The notes under the pieces are model-generated. The model saw only the letters and a list, made by a program, of their open reading frames with translations, searched no databases and was not told where the DNA came from. The position numbers and the translations under genes were made by a program. This document shows positions 6,660 through 41,288 of a stretch of DNA of 41,687 nucleotides, one piece after another. Source of the DNA: a virus; IMG/VR virus record IMGVR_UViG_3300027805_000028, positions 1 to 41,687 of that record; one strand, written 5' to 3'. Every line of letters begins with the position of its first letter. Positions within the stretch are counted from its first letter, which is position 1.

Positions 6660-7097
6660 CTACGTACCAACACACACCATTACAAACTTATCTCGATCAA
6701 CCTTTGACTTGGCCCAGAGCTCAGCTGTAAAATCTACTAACCTGTGCTGTGTTTCGGCCGGAAGTAAAAAGCCTTCATCAACGAGCAAAAGCTCTATCAG
6801 CTCATTGTCACCACCGTAGCTATGATAGCTGAGATTGTGAGCGCTAAAAGCTCTAACCCCATGGGCTCGTCTCAAGTGATCGGTCATCTGAGAATTGTGA
6901 CACACTATCAGGCTCGGGTGTTTAGCCGCAAGCTCAACAATTGCTGTAGTTTTGCCCGACCTTCTTGGTAACCCCAGCTTAATGGTTCTCATCTCTGAGA
7001 TCCACTGCGCGGTGGAAACATGAATCCCATTATCAGGGACAAAGTTCTTCCTGGATTCTTTTATCAAGATTGACAAAAACAGCGCGGTTGGATTCAT
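6660..7097 (-). CDS. P-loop NTPase, short helicase-like protein
   Basis: 145 residues from the ATG at 7097. Walker A is GLPRRSGKTT (residues ~43-52) and Walker B is LLLVDEG (~104-110). The region between them (SLIVCHNSQM) resembles motif Ia of small phage helicases. It is too short for a complete helicase, so it may bind a partner or act as a compact ATPase. The gene begins 12 nt after the CCA end of tRNA-Ser(GGA) and has no clear ribosome site, so it may be translated from the processed tRNA-cluster transcript. Confidence 0.7.
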   Translation of the reverse strand: MNPTALFLSILIKESRKNFVPDNGIHVSTAQWISEMRTIKLGLPRRSGKTTAIVELAAKHPSLIVCHNSQMTDHLRRAHGVRAFSAHNLSYHSYGGDNELIELLLVDEGFLLPAETQHRLVDFTAELWAKSKVDRDKFVMVCVGT

Positions 7098-12316: not shown

Positions 12317-12393
12317 TGGTAGCGGGCGGAGGTAACGCTCCTCCTTTCCTAAGCCCGGCTTATGAGGCCGGTGGGGGACTATCCCAACCCGCA
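12317..12393 (-). tRNA. tRNA-Met(CAT), highly divergent, with T1-T72 mismatch
   Basis: Stem CCGGC/GCCGG with loop CTCATAA gives anticodon CAT. The acceptor pairs from position 2 (GCGGGT/GCCCGC) and leaves T1 facing T72, then A73 and an encoded CCA. An unpaired 1:72 is an initiator hallmark. The T-loop is AGCGTTA instead of TTCRANN, and the D-loop lacks GG, so the usual D-T contact is lost on both sides. The 5' part overlaps the 3' end of the GIY-YIG gene. Confidence 0.6.
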
Positions 12394-13046
12394 GTTGATT
12401 GCTTCAGAATTCTTCCTCTTGACCAACCCTGTAGTTGAAGTTCTTCAACACGGATTTTAGGTTGTGGTTTGCTGATGCCGTCTTTAGTCATCCAAACCTT
12501 GCCTGACATGGAATTCTTGGTTCCTTGCTGGTGGCCTATTGCTTCAAATGTACGTTTCCGCTTTTCTTTGGACTTTTCGCTAAGCGCGGCATTGACCATT
12601 GCTGGTTGACTTTTTTCGCGTATGGATTTGAGTAGTTTGTCTCGCGCAGTTACCCAAGTTTTCTTGCTTGAAGCACTCAAATCTTTTACCTTCATCATCG
12701 CATCATATCCAGCCCTGTGGAACTTTGCGGCGTGTTGTGCATCCCACAACTTACCACCTCCCTCTCCACCATACTACAAGTTCATGTTGAGCGGGTCGGA
12801 CAGCAGTTGTTCATTGACCATCTCCTTCTCGCGAAGTTTCAGTGCTTCGCGACTTGAACACATTTCAATGATTTCCTTTTTGTGATTTTGGTCTCCGTAT
12901 TTCTTACGCGAGTAACCCAAAATCTTTCCACTTCCGAGGTAACCATCATCAAGGTTATCGGTGCTGTGCATGCCGATATAGAACTTACCCGTCACCAAAC
13001 AAGTCGTCTTATAGATGTAGTGGTATCTTTTTGGTGGTCTTGGCAT
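12360..13046 (-). CDS. GIY-YIG homing endonuclease interrupted by an in-frame TAG
   Basis: The ATG at 13046 has AAAGGAG 5-6 nt upstream and a CATAAATA late box. The N-terminal 91 residues hold the nuclease domain: YHYIYKTT...GKFYIGMHS with GYLGSGKIL. TAG at 12774-12776 follows DPLNMNL. The same frame continues without a break as YGGEGGGKLWD and 129 more codons to TAA at 12360, with a basic C-terminal half. Relatives read NMxxGGEGG through this point, so the TAG replaces a sense codon. It is either a pseudogene, two proteins, or a client of the amber-suppressor tRNA at 25150. Full length would be about 228 residues. Confidence 0.75.
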
Positions 13047-13063
13047 ATTGTTCTCCTTTCGCT

Positions 13064-13071
13064 TATTTATG
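13064..13071 (-). promoter_or_regulatory. T4-type late promoter (CATAAATA)
   Basis: Minus-strand GCCATAAATAAG, 17 nt before the GIY-YIG ATG. Confidence 0.55.
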
Positions 13072-13098
13072 GCTAGGGAGGAACAATACAACCTGGAG

Positions 13099-21744: not shown

Positions 21745-22248
21745 TCAGGTTATAGATGAGACCTTTGCCACTGCAGATATAACTGCAGCAATTCTTCCAA
21801 CATCTTGCAGCTGTTTAGTTGTCCAGCCATGTTGTTTCAAAAGATCATAGTGGGACTTGACACAGAAATGACACTTGCCAACAATCGAAGCTGCGAGCGC
21901 GTAGGCTTCAAATCTATCCTTTGTAGTTCCACCGGAAGTTGAGTAGGACGTCATACGAAGCCCGGCAGGAAGACCCTTCAGTTCAGTGTCCTCAGCCATT
22001 TCTACGTATGGATACCAGGTGTTGTTCATGCTCATTAGCGCTGCTGCCGTAAGCGCGGCTTGAAATTCCTGCTGAGTGATTTTTTCAAGGAACGCGTTAG
22101 GATCCAAGCCGGCGGCAACTGCAGCAGCAGTTGCTACTCCACCTGCAACTTCAGGAGCAAGTGACGAGCGAAGGACAACTGCGTCAAGATTTAACTTGAT
22201 GTCCTTCGCAAAATCCGGGATTGATTGCTTTAGTTGCTCATAGCTCAC
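21745..22248 (-). CDS. ahpD: AhpD-like alkylhydroperoxidase
   Basis: 167 residues. I chose the GTG at 22248 because it overlaps the ahpC stop (GTGA) and GGAGG stands 9 nt upstream. The signature is EAYALAASIVGKCHFCVKSH by position (~115-135), a CxxC followed by His, the proton-relay site of AhpD in the carboxymuconolactone-decarboxylase superfamily. AhpD re-reduces AhpC, so the pair can clear peroxides in the infected cell. Bacterial pairs of this type are known; in a phage this is unusual. Confidence 0.88.
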   Translation of the reverse strand: MSYEQLKQSIPDFAKDIKLNLDAVVLRSSLAPEVAGGVATAAAVAAGLDPNAFLEKITQQEFQAALTAAALMSMNNTWYPYVEMAEDTELKGLPAGLRMTSYSTSGGTTKDRFEAYALAASIVGKCHFCVKSHYDLLKQHGWTTKQLQDVGRIAAVISAVAKVSSIT

Positions 22249-22790
22249 AGCGTCGCTCCTCCAACTTGACGGTTGCATGGGCAGAGCTCACCGGTCTGAA
22301 GAGCATCCAGTACGCGAAGAGCTTCCTGTGCTGAGCGGCCAACGTCGAGGTTATTGACCGTGACGTGTTGGATGACGTTCCAAGGATCAACGATGAAGGT
22401 TGCACGAAGAGCAGCGCCTCTTTCTTTATTGAACACGCCAAGAACCTCAGACAGAGATCCTTCACCACGCAGAACGTCGGCGAACATCCAGTGCTTGGTT
22501 GCCTTAAGGCCCTCATGAGCTGCCCTCCAGGCCAGCTTACAGAACTCATTGTCGGTCGAGCCAGTCATAAGGACGGCATCACGGTCCTCAAAATCTTGAA
22601 CAAGCTTGTCGTACTCAACGATTTCGGTGGGGCACACGAACGTAAAGTCCTTTGGGTAGAAAACAATAATCTTCCACTTTCCCTGGAAACTGTCCTGGGT
22701 AATTTCTTCAAACGCGTCGTCTGGTGTAGTTTTTCCAGGCTTTACACCAAGAACTTGGAACTGTGGAAGGGTGTCGTATACGGTCTTCAT
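22245..22790 (-). CDS. ahpC: AhpC-type peroxiredoxin
   Basis: 181 residues. Peroxidatic cysteine C53 in DFTFVCPTE, the conserved FIVDP and the C-terminal resolving pair ELCPCN with QVGG. Full length for the AhpC/Prx1-like group that works with AhpD. It reduces H2O2, alkyl peroxides or peroxynitrite. It has its own TTGACA-16-TATACT promoter and a palindrome downstream of the -10, unlike the late genes around it, so it is likely expressed early and perhaps regulated. Confidence 0.93.
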   Translation of the reverse strand: MKTVYDTLPQFQVLGVKPGKTTPDDAFEEITQDSFQGKWKIIVFYPKDFTFVCPTEIVEYDKLVQDFEDRDAVLMTGSTDNEFCKLAWRAAHEGLKATKHWMFADVLRGEGSLSEVLGVFNKERGAALRATFIVDPWNVIQHVTVNNLDVGRSAQEALRVLDALQTGELCPCNRQVGGATL

Positions 22791-22919: not shown

Positions 22920-23546
22920 TTATACCCGATAAAGTTGACGACAGATAAGAGCTCCAATTTTTGAAAGGTTCTTCCACTTGATCTTAAACGACGTGCTATC
23001 AATGCCACCAAACATATCCGCGTTCGCGTGCAGTTCTGATAGAGCTGTTAGCAGCAGCGCGGGCGCAAGGTCATAGCGGGTAAAGGCTTCAATAGTGGAA
23101 GGCTTCAATAGATGGAGGTCCATGTCGTGTTGAATGAGATCAGCGATGAGACCATCATCACAGTGTGCCTGCCACACAGATGCCGAGATTACAGCGTGAT
23201 TTGGAAAGTGTTGCTTTCCATCTTCATCAACTTGACAGCAATAAACTTTTCCAACATCGTGAAACTCATGGTAAAGCCACATTAAAGCTGCTGGTGGCTG
23301 GTCGCACAGCAGCTTTTCACGATATGAAATAAACCAGTCCGGTAGTTTCCAACCTGCTATTTGACCTGCGATGAGGTCCTGATACTTTTGCGCGACTGCA
23401 AGACCATGCTGGTGAATAGTCTGCTTCTCGTTTTGGTTGCACTGCTGCATCTTCTCACGAAGATCATATAGTGGTGAACCTGGGCGCGCGCCTATTTTGC
23501 AACTAATGCTAATGGGTGGTGCGCAGAGCGTGTTGTTCTATTGCAT
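22920..23546 (-). CDS. HD-domain phosphohydrolase-like protein with in-frame TAG at codon 3
   Basis: The ATG at 23546 has AAAGGAG 7 nt upstream; the third codon is TAG (23538-23540). The frame then runs open through NNTLCAPP...GSPLYDLREKMQQ to the stop. A shorter start at 23450 gives 176 residues but only a weak ribosome site. HD hallmarks: QHGLAVAQKY, LYHEFHDVGK (HD pair), FPNHAVISASVW and IADLIQHDMD. Such proteins hydrolyse phosphate bonds of nucleotides or RNA; the substrate is unknown. Full-length product probably needs the amber suppressor encoded 1.7 kb upstream. Confidence 0.8.
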
Positions 23547-23550
23547 GATG

Positions 23551-24117
23551 TTACTCCTTTGAAAAGTGGGTGTTGCGGTAATTGATGAGGTACTCACAGG
23601 CAGTCTTCGAGTTGGCTAGTTTCTCGATAGCAGCATCTAACGTAACCTCAGGTCGGTCGTGCTGCTTGGTCTCAGGGTTCCAGCGTGAGAACGCTGATTG
23701 GATCTCGTGGAGGGCGTGCTTGCCGGGATAGGGATGGAGGGTGTTGATACCGACAACATCTTCAGCGTGACACTTGGAGCAGGACATCGGGATGCAGGTG
23801 CAGTCACCGACGTGCTCTCCCCTGAGCTCTTCCAGGTAGTGCTGCAGAAGTTCTTCGACTCGCTTCTCGATAGGTGACTGTCCATCAGCGCACCAGCGAT
23901 CAGGATCAAGCTCACTCTTTGCCTCAGTAACTGCGTCTTCAAGTGCCATTGGCGGCACGCTACCAAAGCCCTTCACCTTTGAAGTAAGGGCGAAGTGGGC
24001 GCCGAAGATAAGCTCCTCATACTGCTCAATCTTCAGCTTGAGGCGCAGCACTTCGACTTCATGCTCGTCAAGCTCAACGATGGTTGCAAGCGGGTTTGGT
24101 GTGTGGGTGATCTTCAT
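23551..24117 (-). CDS. Cys-rich phage protein (CTC...CSKCHAE)
   Basis: 188 residues. N-terminal helical region with EVEVLRLKLKIEQYEE; the middle VGDCTCIPMSCSKCHAEDV (~107-125) has four cysteines and a His, a likely zinc site. It is followed by LHPYPGKHALHEIQSAF and TLDAAIEKL, a combination repeated in many phage hypothetical proteins. Function unknown. Coupled by ATGA to the 49-residue gene upstream. Its last codons supply the AAAGGAG ribosome site of the HD gene. Confidence 0.75.
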   Translation of the reverse strand: MKITHTPNPLATIVELDEHEVEVLRLKLKIEQYEELIFGAHFALTSKVKGFGSVPPMALEDAVTEAKSELDPDRWCADGQSPIEKRVEELLQHYLEELRGEHVGDCTCIPMSCSKCHAEDVVGINTLHPYPGKHALHEIQSAFSRWNPETKQHDRPEVTLDAAIEKLANSKTACEYLINYRNTHFSKE

Positions 24118-24263
24118 TCCGTGTCCTCCTGGTAGTATTGATCACTCAGCGCAACTAGTTGCTCCCTGACATCCATCTCAAGGTGGTAGTCACCACGGTC
24201 TTCAGCGTCCTTCAGCACCTCGCGCAGCCGTTGGCTCTCCTGTTGGTAGTACTCGTTGGTCAT
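24114..24263 (-). CDS. Small acidic protein, 49 residues
   Basis: MTNEYYQQESQRLREVL..., helical, acidic. The ATG shares one base with the upstream stop (TGATG), and the stop overlaps the next ATG, so it fits perfectly in the operon. No function assigned. Confidence 0.7.
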   Translation of the reverse strand: MTNEYYQQESQRLREVLKDAEDRGDYHLEMDVREQLVALSDQYYQEDTE

Positions 24264-24682
24264 CACTTCACTCCCAGCTTCTTCTGAAGAGCCTCAAGCT
24301 GGGCCAGATCGCGGGCACGCTGCTCAGCCTCGATCTTGCGGGCCTTTGCCAGTGCAGCCTCTGCAGCAGCGTCCTTGCGGATCTTCTCAGCCGCCTCGTG
24401 CTCGGCAGAAATGATCGGCAGCACCTCACGCATCTCATCGTTCAGTGCATCGAACTGCTCATACTCCTCGCTGGCCATCTTGTCTTCGGGAATGCCGTTG
24501 ATCAGAATGAGCAGGTCTTCGTACGTGCGGTGGAAGGTGTGGAAAGCCCACTCACGAAGAAACTCAGCCTTCTGCTCTTCGCGGAAGAAATACGTTTCGA
24601 ACTTGCCGGGCTGGGAGATGTAATCACCGCAGCGGTCGTGGTACGATTGGTCTTCGGTGTGGCCAATGATGGTGAAGTTCAT
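24263..24682 (-). CDS. Hypothetical protein with C-terminal coiled coil
   Basis: 139 residues. The N-terminal half (MNFTIIGHTEDQSYHDRCGD) looks globular. From ~90 onward it is a charged, alanine-rich coiled coil (AEHEAAEKIRKDAAAEAALAKARK by position). Overlaps the Pth2-like gene by 4 nt. No known family. Confidence 0.7.
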   Translation of the reverse strand: MNFTIIGHTEDQSYHDRCGDYISQPGKFETYFFREEQKAEFLREWAFHTFHRTYEDLLILINGIPEDKMASEEYEQFDALNDEMREVLPIISAEHEAAEKIRKDAAAEAALAKARKIEAEQRARDLAQLEALQKKLGVK

Positions 24683-25017
24683 TTCGTGCTCCAGAGTTGA
24701 AGTGACTTGAGGTGGTGGCGCTGCTCTTCGGTGAGCAGGCAGGAGATTGCCGTCAAGCCCCAGTCCATGTAGGGCTCGTGAAACTCGGCAGTGGGTATGC
24801 CGACGTGGTTGAGCCTGGAGCGAATGTGCTCAAGCTCCTGCTTGTTTCGACAGGTTAGAAAGATGAGAGATGGGTGGTGGTCAGGTGGTCGACCATATTC
24901 CAGCGCATACTCAAGACAGGCGTGGCCTGCTTGGATGGCTTGTTGAGACGTGGGAATGTCTCGGCGGGCAATGCCATAAAGGCGGGTTTTTGTAATCTAC
25001 ACTTTAGCTCCTTTCAT
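24679..25017 (-). CDS. Peptidyl-tRNA hydrolase 2-like protein with in-frame TAG at codon 7
   Basis: The frame after TAG (24997-24999) is ITKTRLYGIARRDIPTSQQ AIQAGHACLEYA..., matching the Pth2 pattern (R/K-D-L/I...GQ.A.QAGHA) followed by LIFLTC, a central helix and GIPTAEFHEPYMDWGLTA. The ATG at 25017 (MKGAKV, then TAG) has GGAAG 9 nt upstream; alternatively GTG-TAG follows a perfect AAAGGAG. Without readthrough the only start after TAG is ATT. Pth2 enzymes free tRNA from stalled peptidyl-tRNA. The amber-suppressor tRNA gene lies 130 bp upstream. Confidence 0.75.
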
Positions 25018-25019
25018 AG

Positions 25020-25145
25020 TTAAGGTCTTCCGGGAAATCCGTCTTCTGTGTCAAACATGAAGATGTGCGCACCAATGACCAGCAAAATTGACGTCACCAA
25101 AATAGCTGTACAGATCTTGATAGCAATGTCAAATGCTCTTCTCAT
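25020..25145 (-). CDS. Small single-pass membrane protein, 41 residues
   Basis: MRRAFDIAIKICTAILVTSILLVIGAHIFMF is a positive-inside N-terminus followed by one transmembrane helix and a short polar tail. It starts 5 nt after the CCA of the suppressor tRNA, without a clear ribosome site, and ends 3 nt before the ATG of the Pth2-like frame. Confidence 0.6.
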   Translation of the reverse strand: MRRAFDIAIKICTAILVTSILLVIGAHIFMFDTEDGFPGRP

Positions 25146-25149
25146 ATAC

Positions 25150-25225
25150 TGGTGGCCACGATGGGAATCGAACCCATGACACGGGAATTTAGAGTTCCCT
25201 GTTCTAACCACTGAACTACATGGCC
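25150..25225 (-). tRNA. Amber-suppressor tRNA, anticodon CTA
   Basis: Acceptor GGCCATG/CGTGGCC, A73, CCA encoded, D-arm TAGTTCAGTGGTTAGAAC, stem GGGAA/TTCCC with loop CTCTAAA (U33, anticodon CTA), T-loop TTCGATT. Every tRNA feature is canonical. The loop equals that of the classic su7-type Trp suppressor, but the amino acid cannot be deduced. It has its own -10 box 9 nt upstream. Confidence 0.92.
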
Positions 25226-26043: not shown

Positions 26044-26068
26044 CGACTACGGCCCCGAAGGGCCGTAG
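26044..26068 (-). terminator. UUCG-capped terminator after the tmRNA
   Basis: Minus-strand CTACGGCCC-TTCG-GGGCCGTAG then TCGTTT. Confidence 0.8.
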
Positions 26069-26111
26069 GACTATTTGGTTACAAGGTGGTCAACCCCGTG
26101 CCGGCAGGTTC

Positions 26112-26144
26112 TTAAGCTGCGATGGCAAAACGCGAGTCGTTTGC
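26112..26144 (-). other. tmRNA tag frame, ANDSRFAIAA-stop
   Basis: Resume codon GCA through TAA. The ending FAIAA fits the ClpXP/ClpAP degron pattern (…LAA/…AA). Closest in form to betaproteobacterial tags such as ANDERFALAA. Confidence 0.9.
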
Positions 26145-26427
26145 GTTTGATTTATTTTCGCCGATTACGTCGGTCGACTCTCGTGTCGCGTATGATCATC
26201 TCCGCAGCCCAATCGAAACCTGGTCGGCCCCATTAGGGAAAGCACCGGTAGGTCTAGCGCGAGATTCGCATACACGGCTATCCTAATCCTGTATAGTGCG
26301 ACCTATACGTTTAGATGCTCTTCCTGGTGGAGCCGGGGGGAATCGAACCCCCGTCTTGAACTCTTCAAGTCACTCCGAATTACGACAATACCACAGAACT
26401 GCTGTGGCGCCAGTTTTATATTTACGG

Positions 26428-26970
26428 TTAAAGCTTTATCTCGCTTTTAAATCTGTTAGCTCGCATTTCCTTGTGCTTGTTACAGAGAACCTTAATCCAA
26501 CCTGTACTAGTAGGTTCTCCTGGCTGTCCGCACGTTTCGCACTTGAACTCAGTTGCAGCTTCTAGCTTTCTGACTATGTCATAAACCTCTTTTTGCAGAT
26601 CTAAAAGAACCTCGTCCTTTTGACGCTCATCTGTCCAATCTTCATCGTGTTCTTCAACGTCAGCATCTTCTGTACGCCTGTTAATATCGTAGTAGAAACG
26701 AATTCCACCAAATTTTTCCTTGATCTGTCTGATGCTTAATTGGTAGTCTTGGTGCTTTGCCATCAAAGCGTTAACTTGTTCCATTGCGGAAAGTAGATCA
26801 GGCCACCAACCAGGACCAACTGTATCCCCAAGACAGTAACCGCTATAAAGATGATCATAGGGTTTCCTGAGCTGTGTCCAGATCTCGTCAATTCGCGCAC
26901 TTACAGCTCCATCCCACTTAATATACAGCTGTTCTTCAAGCTCTACAGCTTCATCGATTAGAGCATTCAT
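26428..26970 (-). CDS. Phage protein with zinc-ribbon-like C-terminus
   Basis: 180 residues. The middle IRQIKEKFGGIRFYYDI and the end FKCETCGQPGE...GWIKVLCNKH are typical of a common phage family: a helical body and a CxxC...C...H metal site. Acidic stretch at ~115-130. Function unknown. GGAGATGCT precedes the ATG. Overlaps the upstream gene by 4 nt. Confidence 0.75.
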   Translation of the reverse strand: MNALIDEAVELEEQLYIKWDGAVSARIDEIWTQLRKPYDHLYSGYCLGDTVGPGWWPDLLSAMEQVNALMAKHQDYQLSIRQIKEKFGGIRFYYDINRRTEDADVEEHDEDWTDERQKDEVLLDLQKEVYDIVRKLEAATEFKCETCGQPGEPTSTGWIKVLCNKHKEMRANRFKSEIKL

Positions 26971-27966: not shown

Positions 27967-29373
27967 TTAAAACGAGGCGCGGGTCCGAACTTCGTCCAGC
28001 GTCGTCTTGTTGAAGATGGTGCCATTTACGTAGACAACTTGCATCACATCTTCAAACCCAGCATCTAGCCCCTTGCCAATGTCATAGGTACGAAACTCAC
28101 CAGTTAGTAGCGACTTAGCAAGCGACAGTCTGCCCTCCTTGCTGCGCTTACCAGGATCGGTGACAGGGTTCTTTGAGATACCAACCCATTGCCCATCAAC
28201 AAGAACTGCAGAAGCCTTTTGGGCAAACTTAAAGCTGTCCCTGTTTACCTTCTGGAGCAGAGCACCGCCACTTCCGAAGATCACGCAGTCGGCGCTGTAG
28301 CCCATCGCCATGATGTTGCCGAGCAGGGTCTTGATGGCCATGTGGTCGACGCCGTCGCCTTGGATGATACCAACGTTGTTGATCTTCTTATAGCCCTTGC
28401 TGGTGAGCGTCGTACCGAACGCGGCTTCCTGCATGCGCAGGATCTGCGGCACGATCTCCATCATGTCACCGCTGTCAGGACGGAAGACGATCTTGGCTTG
28501 ACTGGCGATGATCTCGTCCTTCAGCTCGGTGCACAGTAGCTTGGATGCACGGATCACATCATAGCCATCAATGACGATCGAGACGATACCACCTGGCTTG
28601 GCGAGGTTCTTGATCTGGTGACGCAGGTACTCAAGATCGCCACCGCCCTTTTCATCTCGCAGACTGAACGCGCACTGTACGCTGTGCTCGGTGGCAGGCA
28701 CTGAGAACGCGGCCATTGCCGACTTGTAGTAGAAGTTTGCAGCACGAACACCTTCGATGGTGTCGGAACCCATGAAGTTGACGAGGTGGGCAGCACCACC
28801 AATCTCGGCCTGCTCGGCGCAGGTGACGCCACGACCACCGAAGTCGTGCAGCGCGAAGGGCAGAAGACCCATATCGGCACCCGAGAGCTCATAGAAGCGC
28901 TTGATCTCACGCTTGATCTCGTAGTCCATCGAAGCGATTGTCGTCGGGTACCAGAAGCCGCGCTGCAGGGCGGTCTCGAGATAGCTCGACAGCCAGAAGA
29001 GGTCGGGATCAGTGCACTCGATGGTCACGAGGGCATTGCCACTGGGTACCGGCATGCCTTCAGGCACCGCGCGGATGGTGACGGGCAGGTAGCCGCCGTA
29101 CTGAGCGATGACCTTCTCCCAGCCAGCCCTGTTGAAGGGCTCACCGTGCGCCGCCGCAAATGCTTCAGCTTCGTCGATGTGTTCCATCGTGACCTTCTCG
29201 GTCAGGAACTTCTCGATAAACATCTGAAGGCCAAAGGGCACGATGATGTGCCGACCAGCCGTACGGGCTTCGATGTAGGAGTGCATGCCTACCACGTTGC
29301 TCGGGTACGAGAAGGCGTGGCTAAGCTTGTACGAATCCGACGCTAGGATGGGGGTGAAAGAAAGACGTGCCAT
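27967..29373 (-). CDS. nadV: Nicotinamide phosphoribosyltransferase (NadV/NAMPT)
   Basis: 468 residues, full length for the family. The ATG at 29373 has AAGGAG 8 nt upstream. Conserved segments: ASDSYKLSH (N-terminal), FALHDFGGRGV, VIDGYDV, IVFRPDSGD and IQGDGVD, which hold the PRPP and nicotinamide site. Converts nicotinamide and PRPP to NMN. With the NadM-Nudix gene in the same operon it can rebuild NAD from nicotinamide released by NADase defences (the NARP2-type pathway reported in phages). Confidence 0.95.
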   Translation of the reverse strand: MARLSFTPILASDSYKLSHAFSYPSNVVGMHSYIEARTAGRHIIVPFGLQMFIEKFLTEKVTMEHIDEAEAFAAAHGEPFNRAGWEKVIAQYGGYLPVTIRAVPEGMPVPSGNALVTIECTDPDLFWLSSYLETALQRGFWYPTTIASMDYEIKREIKRFYELSGADMGLLPFALHDFGGRGVTCAEQAEIGGAAHLVNFMGSDTIEGVRAANFYYKSAMAAFSVPATEHSVQCAFSLRDEKGGGDLEYLRHQIKNLAKPGGIVSIVIDGYDVIRASKLLCTELKDEIIASQAKIVFRPDSGDMMEIVPQILRMQEAAFGTTLTSKGYKKINNVGIIQGDGVDHMAIKTLLGNIMAMGYSADCVIFGSGGALLQKVNRDSFKFAQKASAVLVDGQWVGISKNPVTDPGKRSKEGRLSLAKSLLTGEFRTYDIGKGLDAGFEDVMQVVYVNGTIFNKTTLDEVRTRASF

Positions 29374-29386
29374 GATAAGCTCCTTG

Positions 29387-29593
29387 TCAATGGCTGGACT
29401 TGGCGTCTGTCGCCGTATCCGTTTTGGCACCAGTTGTGGTCGGTACCTTCACCCACAGGCTCCAATGAACAGAGGAGCCCGAATTGAAACTGTATCTGCA
29501 CTTACAGATGGGAGGATGTTTTGCGGCGACCATCATATGATTATAGAACTGATCGCTAATTTTTACTCCACACCCGTGATAGCACTCGTACAT
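29387..29593 (-). CDS. Small Cys-rich protein, 68 residues
   Basis: MYECYHGCGVKISDQFYNHM...CKCRYSF has CxxxC and CxC with histidines, a possible zinc knuckle. It fits between the 118-residue gene (10-nt gap) and nadV (14-nt gap). Ribosome site weak. No family recognised. Confidence 0.6.
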   Translation of the reverse strand: MYECYHGCGVKISDQFYNHMMVAAKHPPICKCRYSFNSGSSVHWSLWVKVPTTTGAKTDTATDAKSSH

Positions 29594-29602
29594 GATATTG
29601 CT

Positions 29603-29959
29603 TTAAGGCTTGGCCTTAAGCTTTGCTTGAACTTCTTCAAGCTGCTTCTTAAGCTCTGCCTCAAGCTTAATCAATCGATTGCGGTTCTTCACGCTTTCAG
29701 CATCTACCTTTTGAACAGCAACAGGGTTGATGTTTCCTCCGGCACCCCAAGCCCAGAAACCACTCATCTCAGTTGCCATCTCCAGAATGTCTCGCAGCTT
29801 TCCTTGGTAAATCCCAAGGCGCGGCTGGTAGTGGTGACCGCCGAGGTCACAGTTAGGATCTTCTCCCAGAACTTCCCAGGTGCCAGTGTCATCAAGACTG
29901 TGCTGCTTCAGCAGCTCTCGACCAGCGTAGGTCTGCAGGTAGTTTTCGTACTTGCTCAT
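29603..29959 (-). CDS. Hypothetical protein inside the NAD operon
   Basis: 118 residues from the ATG at 29959 (AAGGA upstream). YENYLQTYAGRELLKQHSLDDTGTWEVLGEDPNCDLGGHH (by position) is followed by GKLRDILEMAT and a C-terminal coiled coil (LEAELKKQLEEVQAK). Similar short proteins occur beside phage nudix genes, but no activity is known to me. Its placement between nadM and nadV suggests a link to NAD salvage. Confidence 0.7.
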   Translation of the reverse strand: MSKYENYLQTYAGRELLKQHSLDDTGTWEVLGEDPNCDLGGHHYQPRLGIYQGKLRDILEMATEMSGFWAWGAGGNINPVAVQKVDAESVKNRNRLIKLEAELKKQLEEVQAKLKAKP

Positions 29960-29960
29960 G

Positions 29961-31106
29961 TTAGATGTCCTTGTAGGCAATGAGGGTTTCAAGAATTGCA
30001 TGGTGATCAGCGTACCACTTGTCAGTCATTTCAAGAGCGTCGCTGATGGGAACCCAAAACGCGTCAGCTGCATCGTCCATTCCCTTGACCTTCGGCAGCG
30101 GCTTCGTATCATCGAGCCGAATGAGGAAGGCGGTGGTGATGGTCCGACCACGAAGATCACGATCAGGCTTGTCGAACGTCTCGCTCTCGCGCACCGACCC
30201 GTTGAGGATCTGCTCAGTGAGCTCTTTTGCCTTCTTGCCTTCAGCCAGTCGGATGCCAGTCTCTTCAACCAGCTCTCGAATGGCGGCGGTTCGCAGCTTC
30301 TCGCTCTGGTTGACGAAGCCACCAGGCAGCGCCCAAAGTCCCCTACCAGGCTCTGCGCCACGCTTCACTACCAGCACGTGTCCAGATTGAACAACGACGC
30401 TGTCAACGGTAACGAAGGTCGGCGCGTAGGGGGCGTTCGCCCAGGAGGCCTTGTACTTCTTGAGGAACTCGTATTCGTAGACCAGCTCGGCGTATTCCTT
30501 CGTCTCGCTGAAGGCGTTCAGAAAGCGAAGGGTGCTGGCCGGCACCATCTTGTTCATTTTGCCCGCCGCCTCAAGGTCGTACTCCTTCGAGAAGAGCCAC
30601 TTACGGATCTCGGTAGCGCTGACGCTCAGGCTGCTGTCTTGAACGTACGGCTCAACAAGCGACTGCTTCCACTGTGGGAAGGCCTTCAGGTACCACGTGC
30701 TCTCGTCACGATCGGAACCAGTGATGTAGACCGTCGGCTTGTCGTCGAGGCTGAAGTTGTCCAGGATCTGGCGCTTGACGATGCGCTGCACCTGACGAAT
30801 CCAGAGAGCGTCGTTGTACGGGTAGTCTCGGATTGGCAGAATGCGAATGGCGCCAAATGCGCCGTCTTGGAGGCCTTGGCCTCCAATGACTTGGCCTCCA
30901 AGGACTTGGCTGCCCAACCACTTCTGGATCATGTCAGCCCTTTCATGGAACGTGAAGGGGTTCTTGAGGGAGCGGGCTTGACCGCTGCTACCTACGAGAA
31001 CAATCACCAGCTTGCTCGTCTCGAGAGCTTGCCGAAGAACGTGGGCGTGACCGTTGTGGAAGGGGCTGAACCGGCCGATGTAGACCGTAACGTCTTTAGA
31101 TGCCAT
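29961..31106 (-). CDS. nadM: Bifunctional NMN adenylyltransferase (NadM) - Nudix hydrolase
   Basis: 381 residues. Domain 1 (~1-190): nucleotidyltransferase GRFSPFHNGH with HxGH (17-20) and the SATEIRKWL motif (~163). Domain 2 (~225-370): Nudix box GGFVNQSEKLRTAAIREL-type with the REL-x-EE-x-G core at 276-284. NadM makes NAD from NMN; the Nudix half probably cleaves ADP-ribose. A glycine-glutamine repeat (LGGQVIGGQGLQ, ~69-80) is inserted in domain 1. GGAG precedes the ATG. Early and late promoter boxes lie upstream. Confidence 0.95.
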   Translation of the reverse strand: MASKDVTVYIGRFSPFHNGHAHVLRQALETSKLVIVLVGSSGQARSLKNPFTFHERADMIQKWLGSQVLGGQVIGGQGLQDGAFGAIRILPIRDYPYNDALWIRQVQRIVKRQILDNFSLDDKPTVYITGSDRDESTWYLKAFPQWKQSLVEPYVQDSSLSVSATEIRKWLFSKEYDLEAAGKMNKMVPASTLRFLNAFSETKEYAELVYEYEFLKKYKASWANAPYAPTFVTVDSVVVQSGHVLVVKRGAEPGRGLWALPGGFVNQSEKLRTAAIRELVEETGIRLAEGKKAKELTEQILNGSVRESETFDKPDRDLRGRTITTAFLIRLDDTKPLPKVKGMDDAADAFWVPISDALEMTDKWYADHHAILETLIAYKDI

Positions 31107-40206: not shown

Positions 40207-41100
40207 TTAGCAAACTTCAAGACTGTCAAGATCAACAAACACTGGAACAGTTTCACGCTGTCCGTTATCTCCAGGTTGCATAAAGCTGTTGTGTTTGGAC
40301 ATCCATTCCCCACGATATCCAGCTGGGTTGCAGACAACTCTAGTGTTCCACAGCGTGGTGTTGATTGTGTCGTGGGTGTGCCCGTGAATCCACAGCGCGG
40401 GAGCAATCTCAGTCCTTGCAAGAATATCGTCGCAGTTTCCAACGAAACCGCCATTGGCGCCATCAGAACCATCACCAGGCCAGAAACGCGCAGATACCAG
40501 CCTACGAGACGGAAGATGGTGAGTTACCACGATTTTCTTCCCAGCGAATGGAGCGCTCAGTGCACTCTCAATTCCGAACTTGGCCCTCTTGTACTGGGTG
40601 ATCATGTCTTGCACAGTAAACCTGACAAAGCCGTCACCAGCTCTAATGAGGCGAAAATCGTTGAGATAAAACCCCGTCTTGGCCTGATCCTCTAAGGTAG
40701 GTCCTCCGTCACCCCACAACGTACCAAAGATGAAGCGAATCCCACCAATGTCAGCGTACTGTACGCTATCAGTTGCAAAGTATAGATGCTTACCATCTTT
40801 CAAGTGAGCCTGGTGCAGTGCAACTAAGTCCGTCTCCGTGTCGATATTCCACTGGTGAAAGTGGTGGCGGTAATATTCGTGGTTTCCGGGAACAAAGATA
40901 ACGTCCCAAAACCTCTGCATACATGCAGACAGAAATCTGATAAGCTGTTCAGGTGATGACGAAACGTCTCCTGCTAGGATGAGGATGCTCTGATCATCAC
41001 GCGCATCTTTTGGGAGGAAGTCCAAAGCTAGAGTTTCTGCATCACGCCCAATGAACCCTTCGAGGTGGAGATCAGAAGCAATACGAAGATATTTTTTCAT
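40207..41100 (-). CDS. Calcineurin-like metallophosphoesterase
   Basis: 297 residues from the ATG at 41100. Metal motifs in order: IASDLHLEG (DxH), ILAGDVSS (GD), VPGNHEYY (GNHE), VVTHHLPS (HH) and WIHGHTHDT (GHTH). This is a complete active site for a phosphodiesterase or phosphatase; the substrate could be nucleotides or cyclic nucleotides. A TATAAT box ends 6 nt before the ATG, so the transcript may be leaderless. Followed by a strong terminator. Confidence 0.92.
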   Translation of the reverse strand: MKKYLRIASDLHLEGFIGRDAETLALDFLPKDARDDQSILILAGDVSSSPEQLIRFLSACMQRFWDVIFVPGNHEYYRHHFHQWNIDTETDLVALHQAHLKDGKHLYFATDSVQYADIGGIRFIFGTLWGDGGPTLEDQAKTGFYLNDFRLIRAGDGFVRFTVQDMITQYKRAKFGIESALSAPFAGKKIVVTHHLPSRRLVSARFWPGDGSDGANGGFVGNCDDILARTEIAPALWIHGHTHDTINTTLWNTRVVCNPAGYRGEWMSKHNSFMQPGDNGQRETVPVFVDLDSLEVC

Positions 41101-41106
41101 AGTTCT

Positions 41107-41112
41107 ATTATA
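41107..41112 (-). promoter_or_regulatory. Extended -10 promoter adjoining an ATG
   Basis: Minus-strand AGTGTATAATAG; start expected at or next to the ATG at 41100. Confidence 0.5.
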
Positions 41113-41114
41113 CA

Positions 41115-41288
41115 CTAAGCCGATAACTTAGAAACTTCTTTGTGCAGGTTAAACCAGTGTGAAACTTTATTCTTTAATTCAATAACTGACCCTGGCTCGT
41201 GCAGCTTCTCAGCAGTATCTGCAACCTCTTGGGCTGCTTTTCTTTCAGCTCTTTTTTGAGCAAACGCGCTGAAGTCATAGAGCTTCAT
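41115..41288 (-). CDS. Small helical protein, 57 residues
   Basis: MKLYDFSAFAQKRAERKAAQEV..., begins like the late-leader proteins but has no [L/I]xE. ATG overlaps the LRR stop (ATGA). Stop is TAG with TGA five codons later. Function unknown. Confidence 0.65.
   Translation of the reverse strand: MKLYDFSAFAQKRAERKAAQEVADTAEKLHEPGSVIELKNKVSHWFNLHKEVSKLSA

Follow-up and report, generated by a model that had tools for sequence, protein, structure and literature searches.

A candidate suppressor-tRNA switch on tRNA-recycling genes of large phages

Why would a phage in which TAG still ends genes also encode a transfer RNA (tRNA) predicted to read that codon, and place it close to two genes whose own reading frames meet TAG within the first few codons? 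The question is raised by a 41.7 kb piece of an IMG/VR virus record (IMGVR_UViG_3300027805_000028, positions 1 to 41,687), referred to here as the window, in which a gene for a tRNA with anticodon CTA, tRNA(CUA), lies on the same strand as a PTH2-like peptidyl-tRNA hydrolase gene and an HD-domain gene. The comparisons described below make it very probable that PTH2 and HD, predicted tRNA-recycling enzymes, are under the control of a dedicated suppressor-tRNA switch.

When both strands of the window were scanned blind for a Shine-Dalgarno sequence, a start codon, at most eight codons, a TAG and then at least 80 open codons, exactly two matches were returned, the PTH2-like gene and the HD-domain gene, and the early-TAG pair therefore exceeds chance. 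Genes carrying such an in-frame stop are called gated below. The HD gene, whose 5′ end reads AAAGGAGTAACATC-ATG-CAA-TAG, has its TAG at codon 3 behind a good ribosome site, as an earlier note on this DNA had described (Table 1). That note had also given the PTH2-like gene an early TAG, which is present, although its placement at codon 7 depends on counting from ATG 25017. The 5′ end of this gene reads AAAGGAG-CTAAA-GTG-TAG-ATT, with the ATG five codons further up than GTG 25002, and since the ribosome site fits the GTG directly before the TAG, the stop is more likely codon 2. The tRNA with anticodon CTA was called as canonical by two programs, as expected from the earlier note, and by its CUA anticodon is a predicted amber suppressor. 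Among the tRNAs of the window the nearest to it in a crude global alignment is Ala(cgc). The promoter of its own with which it had been credited did not hold up, a scan giving no sigma-70 promoter at the tRNA, though TATAAT lies just upstream.

The arrangement recurs widely among homologues of the two genes. IMG/VR was surveyed with alignments that start after the TAG, so that the codon had no influence on what was retrieved, and a locus was counted when an ATG lay within eight codons before a TAG that was the first stop upstream of the domain. By this definition the early ATG..TAG is present in 49 of 57 distinct PTH2 loci and 50 of 71 distinct HD loci, most commonly at codon 3, compared with 32 of the 1,056 other open reading frames (ORFs) of the same loci (3%), where the convincing examples were again PTH2 or HD. 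The census loci are not independent, and Fisher values are descriptive only; after clustering at 70% protein identity, 32 of 40 PTH2 groups and 36 of 49 HD groups have the early TAG. TAA was not seen in this arrangement in either family of the census. Nearly all HD loci that lack the early TAG instead have TGA, an internal TAG in HD, or a PTH2, adjacent or fused, that is itself gated, and when these forms are included 69 of the 71 HD loci have a nonsense gate. The stops found inside HD genes were TAG every time; they lie at codon 47 in the CBB group and at match residues 34, 41 and 104 in others (L125, L164, L186, L189-L194 and L197). Scans of IMG/VR with the window HD protein alone, or with the exact tRNA pattern, found no relative.

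Named phages display the same feature. Among HD relatives of about 40% identity, LR745206 begins MNT[TAG], Stenotrophomonas phage RAS14 and Xanthomonas phage XacN1 begin MK[TAG], and the CBB, GAP32 and BF group has the codon 47 form. HD and PTH2 are fused in that order in RAS14 and XacN1, and in the order PTH2-HD, with MK[TAG], in Tenacibaculum phage pT24, while in CBB and ME3 PTH2 is the next gene after HD and begins MAQ[TAG] and MT[TAG], respectively. Salmonella phage Arash has ML[TAG] with a CTA tRNA 1 kb away, and LR756500 has MK[TAG] and a CTA tRNA. Scanning the complete genome of XacN1 for the TAG arrangement identified the HD-PTH2 fusion as the only gene of the set that has it, and in the complete RAS14 genome the scan returned two matches, the fusion and one dubious frame. 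Control scans of complete genomes for TAA and TGA gave 0 to 2 unrelated matches each.

The predicted suppressor tends to accompany its target. CTA is the commonest anticodon near the gated families, with a tRNA(CUA) within about 5 kb in 72 of 128 loci (the next anticodon reaches 33), and all 80 of 80 CTA tRNAs are on the strand of the gene. All CTA assignments were rechecked with ARAGORN, as a first, loose tRNA pattern performed at control level and a tighter one also caught Arg(TCT) tRNAs. Further CTA tRNAs lie elsewhere in the records of XacN1 (two per terminal repeat), CBB, RAS14, XbC2, BF, LR756511, LR756501 and six IMG/VR contigs. CTA tRNAs are often paired as neighbouring genes (L123, L126, L127, L129, L130, L139, L195 and XacN1 L334). 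PTH2 loci without the early TAG have a CTA tRNA in one case of eight, and that one contains an internal TAG. The PTH2/HD frame studied in Hallingskeid has no TAG, in RaK2 an ATG follows the upstream TAG, and a pattern search gave no CTA tRNA in either; likewise, no early TAG, and no CTA tRNA within 6.5 kb, was seen for the HD copies on a Pseudomonas serbica megaplasmid (L381, 1.06 Mb) and in a Crocinitomicaceae assembly. Relatives with a sense codon and no suppressor tRNA had been named in the earlier note as an observation that would speak against readthrough. RaK2, Hallingskeid and the P. serbica copy, which lack both the suppressor and the early TAG, match that description in form, but together with the other evidence they show that stop and tRNA are coupled.

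The identity of the stop codon follows that of the anticodon. Agrobacterium phage Atu_ph07 is reported to carry an opal suppressor tRNA(UCA) (PMC6102473), also seen in the present analysis, and its PTH2 gene near 198.5 kb reads ATG-ATT-GGC-GAA-CAC-TTT-TGA-ATT (MIGEHF[TGA]) with a good ribosome site upstream. Its nearest relative, Sinorhizobium phage Phosso (72% identical), has ATG-AAG-TAT-TAG (MKY[TAG]) and two tRNA(CUA). Three HD genes of the census (L141, L151 and L169) have TGA at the gate; as predicted, tRNA(UCA) was present in 3/3 and tRNA(CUA) was not found in the parts of these genomes searched. All four TGA-gated phages thus have tRNA(UCA), with no CUA found. L107, with two tRNA(UCA), was left out of this count, the start of its PTH2 being unclear. 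Because the codon becomes UGA where the suppressor is tRNA(UCA), selection appears to hold the stop and the suppressor together.

The sequence around the early stop also argues for decoding. A purine after UAG, above all A, favours suppression. The base that follows the early TAG is A in 78 cases, G in 17, C in 4 and T in none, compared with A 29, T 27, G 21 and C 16 after the gene-ending TAGs of the same loci, and the next codon is ATT in 47 of 99. Where a ribosome site is present, it most often lies 5-9 nucleotides upstream of the ATG ahead of the TAG. The five HD genes most closely related to that of the window retain LR(E/S/Q)K ahead of the first conserved methionine, and the true HD start is thus placed upstream of that methionine. 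Taken together, the recurrence of the early TAG, its suppression-type 3′ context, the CTA tRNA beside it and the TGA forms with UCA strongly support, for PTH2 and HD, the proposal in the earlier note that TAG is read through in selected genes, and from these sequence features readthrough is strongly inferred. Acceptor ends and discriminator bases vary so widely among the CTA tRNAs seen that no amino acid can be named for them.

Enzymes of tRNA metabolism are suggested for both products, by the predicted fold for PTH2 and by a weak resemblance for HD. The AlphaFold model of the PTH2-like window protein has a predicted local distance difference test (pLDDT) score of 94.2, and the best 14 Foldseek matches in the PDB include the PTH2 enzymes of M. 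jannaschii, P. horikoshii and A. fulgidus and human Bit1 (best E-value 1.6e-5, template modelling (TM) score 0.74). Against PF01981 the protein scores 16.2 bits, under the cut-off of 23, which marks it as a divergent member of PTH2, in a divergent subfamily, assigned by modelled fold and with hydrolase activity predicted; the gated PTH2 copies of XacN1, pT24 and LR756511 pass the cut-off. A second, canonical PTH2 without an early TAG also occurs in L199, L200 and L201 (XacN1, Atu_ph07 and LR756511). As the canonical second copies of XacN1 and LR756511 are ungated, gating is a trait of particular PTH2 genes and not of all. The HD window protein (pLDDT 96.8) contains the metal-binding pattern H..HD..D, with H15, H64, D65, H85, D109 and H113 invariant in 42 sequences. 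Its profile matches 3wfo/3wfp (E-value 1.5e-4), and the top 15 Foldseek matches of its model are all 3wf entries (3wfo to 3wfs), but weak (E-value about 0.01, TM score about 0.6). In sequence and modelled fold the protein thus shows a weak likeness, its nearest, to the HD part of tRNA-processing poly(A) polymerase.

The mechanism that we propose is as follows. The UAG lies 1 to about 6 codons after the start of the PTH2 gene, the HD gene or both, the two being fused in some phages. With RF1 alone, translation of the gated messages would end after a few residues and no enzyme would be made. Transcription, maturation and charging of the phage tRNA(CUA) would then allow it to decode the UAG, helped by the A or G that follows (often as AUU), and the complete PTH2 and HD proteins would be produced. 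A tRNA would in this way gate enzymes that recycle or process tRNAs, coupling the amount of enzyme to the supply of usable phage tRNA. With the stop so early, little translation would be wasted and it would not matter which residue is inserted, in keeping with the variety of CTA tRNAs. The purpose of the switch, timing or feedback, we can only infer. Timing by accumulation of the suppressor is plausible. During early elongation peptidyl-tRNA often drops off, and Pth clears it (PMC10192219, PMC8012679), which makes a loop between the tRNA pool and the recycling enzymes attractive.

Several observations weigh against a switch of this kind. The opal cases are few (four), L151 and L169 are alike, and the CTA search covered only parts of those genomes. 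About 40% of gated loci have no CTA tRNA within 5 kb, although several have one elsewhere in the record; L050 and LR745206 are gated, yet no CTA tRNA was found in either. In gated L360, L361 and L368 there are degenerate CTA tRNA-like sequences with a poor 5′ half (25-26 bits), and no canonical CTA tRNA was found there, while L125 has TAG gates with only an odd tRNA(UCA)-like match in the parts searched. The TAG scan of ME3 gave one unrelated frame and missed the PTH2 gate, where no ribosome site was recognised; the scan therefore does not catch every case. The mycobacteriophage C1/C2 case is ambiguous: PTH2 there reads ATG/GTG-TAG-GTG with a CTA tRNA next door, and the ribosome site fits the second GTG better.

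Two of the alternatives retain the switch and differ in what it would serve. In the first, it would sense release-factor strength, PTH2 rising when RF1 is weak and peptidyl-tRNA accumulates, much as RF2 controls its own gene. PTH2 handles failed or aborted translation, early drop-off being recycled by Pth (PMC10192219), and UAG and UGA forms both exist, as such a sensor would allow; a pure release-factor sensor could do without the suppressor tRNA, whose presence next to the genes is nevertheless conserved and whose anticodon fits the stop, and we consider this reading unlikely. In the second, the stop would act as a lock: the genes would be silent outside the phage, or in competitors without the suppressor, and the tRNA would thereby be preserved. 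Unlocked copies where no suppressor was detected (L378, L381, RaK2 and Hallingskeid) fit a lock, but there is no evident reason to confine locking to tRNA-recycling genes, and this purpose too seems improbable.

A third alternative needs no suppressor. The ATG-x-TAG could be a tiny upstream frame, a leader minigene, after which ribosomes restart just beyond the TAG. Minigenes are a known control device (PMC8708949; the lambda bar minigenes are cited in PMC8012679), the ATT that so often follows the TAG would suit a restart, and the mycobacteriophage GTG after the TAG, with its well-spaced ribosome site, is the annotated start. Re-initiation is nevertheless very unlikely, as about half of the post-TAG codons are unable to start translation (AAC, GTA, GTT, ACG and others), the ribosome sites fit the ATG before the TAG, and LREK before the next ATG is conserved in relatives of the window gene. 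Nor would it account for the HD stops at codon 47 and at residues 34, 41 and 104, or for a stop type that follows the suppressor anticodon.

General reassignment of TAG, as in genetic code 15, would make the gated genes mere examples. Such a reading can point to the tRNA(CUA) itself and to extra TAGs inside PTH2 of L069, L087, L106 and LR756501, but it was rejected as extremely unlikely because TAG still terminates genes. The stops of the 61 window genes are TAA 33, TGA 23 and TAG 5; TAG ends 93 of 1,098 neighbouring ORFs of the census loci and, among ORFs of at least 100 codons in complete genomes, 40 of 426 in XacN1, 15 of 329 in RAS14 and 20 of 237 in ME3. These ORF sets were made mechanically, and the XacN1 paper counts 18 amber stops. 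The in-frame TAGs are confined to the very start of the same two genes, other genes being without them. The same note had listed four TAG-ended genes in the window (25253, 33311, 33798 and 41115), each with a backup stop within ten codons. The first three do end in TAG, but the gene at 40207-41115 does not, and there are five such genes, with 5 (gene at 6660), 6 (25253), 11 (33311), 10 (33798) and 138 codons (a split GIY-YIG gene) to the backup stop. By an estimate, chance alone would supply a stop within ten codons about 30% of the time, and backup stops therefore carry little weight. The split gene, a GIY-YIG homing endonuclease (12360-13091, minus strand), is interrupted by TAG at 12774-12776 as had been noted, but the codon does not look like a regulated readthrough site, being mid-gene, followed by T and in a mobile endonuclease; it is probably decay tolerated in a suppressor phage.

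Pseudogenes or sequencing error, which premature stops usually suggest, are in effect already refuted: the stop recurs at an equivalent position in some hundred distinct, separately assembled loci, which mostly have one early stop and whose domains are conserved and confidently folded.

Table 1. Position of the gated genes, their neighbours and the suppressor tRNA in the window.
Feature	Position	Strand	Basis
HD-domain gene, phrog_14850 family	22920..23546	-	Sequence matches and AlphaFold model
In-frame TAG gate of the HD gene, codon 3, next codon AAC	23538..23540	-	Sequence, blind scan
HD ribosome-binding site AAAGGAG, 7 nucleotides (TAACATC) before ATG 23546	23554..23560	-	Sequence
Three small ungated genes between PTH2 and HD (operon context)	23551-24117, 24114-24266, 24263-24682 (block 23551..24682)	-	
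PTH2-like peptidyl-tRNA hydrolase gene, start GTG 25002 or ATG 25017	24679..25017	-	Fold, phrog_3668 hydrolase
In-frame TAG gate of the PTH2 gene, next codon ATT	24997..24999	-	Sequence, blind scan
PTH2 ribosome-binding site AAAGGAG, 5 nucleotides before GTG 25002	25008..25014	-	Sequence
tRNA(CUA), predicted amber suppressor tRNA gene	25150..25225	-	ARAGORN; Rfam RF00005, 70.3 bits; CCA end encoded

The window as a whole contains 29 ordinary tRNAs, the CTA tRNA and one transfer-messenger RNA (tmRNA). Its RNA ligase resembles ligases of Burkholderia, Aeromonas and cyanobacterial phages, and the likenesses indicate a large phage that is only distant kin to named ones. The tmRNA, a permuted (two-piece) molecule of beta-proteobacterial type (26044-26433, minus strand; RF01850 144 bits, RF04321 126 bits), adjoins the suppressor tRNA. 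Further along the same strand is a nicotinamide adenine dinucleotide (NAD) salvage pair (27967-31106), likened to phage NAD-restoring pathways and comprising a nicotinamide phosphoribosyltransferase (27967-29430) and a cytidylyltransferase-Nudix fusion (29961-31106). A peroxiredoxin (AhpC/TSA) gene adjoins a carboxymuconolactone-decarboxylase (AhpD-like) gene at 21745-22790 (minus strand).

The proposed switch shares parts with known systems. In crAss-like and Lak phages TAG is reassigned by a suppressor tRNA (genetic code 15; PMC9523058, PMC13037316). There a phage tRNA(CUA) reads UAG as an amino acid, as is proposed here, but in the gated phages TAG stays a terminator and only one or two named genes have one at their start. 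Suppressor tRNAs have been reported for XacN1, RsoM2USA and Atu_ph07 (PMC5852040, PMC8504454, PMC6102473), and phage peptidyl-tRNA hydrolases also appear in the papers on XacN1 and Atu_ph07 (PMC5852040, PMC6102473). These are the same tRNAs, although no target was identified in those reports, the XacN1 paper stating that target genes of its CUA tRNAs could not be identified (PMC5852040); we propose, from their reading frames, XacN1 ORF364 and the Atu_ph07 PTH2 gene near 198.5 kb as targets. A synthetic leak dampener likewise combines an amber codon in a gene with a controlled suppressor tRNA for low-leak expression (PMC7969014). It is engineered, whereas the phage gate, known from its sequence, would be natural, widespread and directed at tRNA-recycling genes. 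In prfB, the gene for RF2, an early in-frame stop in a translation-factor gene controls synthesis through frameshifting and the gene's own product; the phage gate has the early stop in common with prfB but would be decoded by a suppressor tRNA. A survey of jumbo phages discusses PTH2 without mention of the stop, and a survey from 2026 treats suppressors only as genome-wide recoding. Our literature search, with subscription journals and preprints mostly outside it, found no description of an amber gate on tRNA-recycling genes, and the early stop together with its own reading tRNA looks like an undescribed natural lock and key.

Reports on large phages have long listed suppressor tRNAs, for which a concrete candidate target can now be proposed, with gated candidates in the cultured phages XacN1, CBB, GAP32, ME3, Atu_ph07 and Arash. 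The gate accounts for the splitting or truncation of these genes in annotations (CBB_407/408), and the phages in which codon and anticodon have changed together constitute a natural experiment. More tentatively, the switch may belong to a general viral circuit with a viral tRNA as its regulator, in which usable suppressor tRNA would set the level of PTH2 and HD. Such a circuit would have an ancient origin, occur in phages of several bacterial phyla, and be transferable between UAG and UGA through paired codon-anticodon change. The finding offers a naturally evolved low-leak switch, and points to nonsense suppression as a means by which phages may control genes while leaving the genetic code unchanged.

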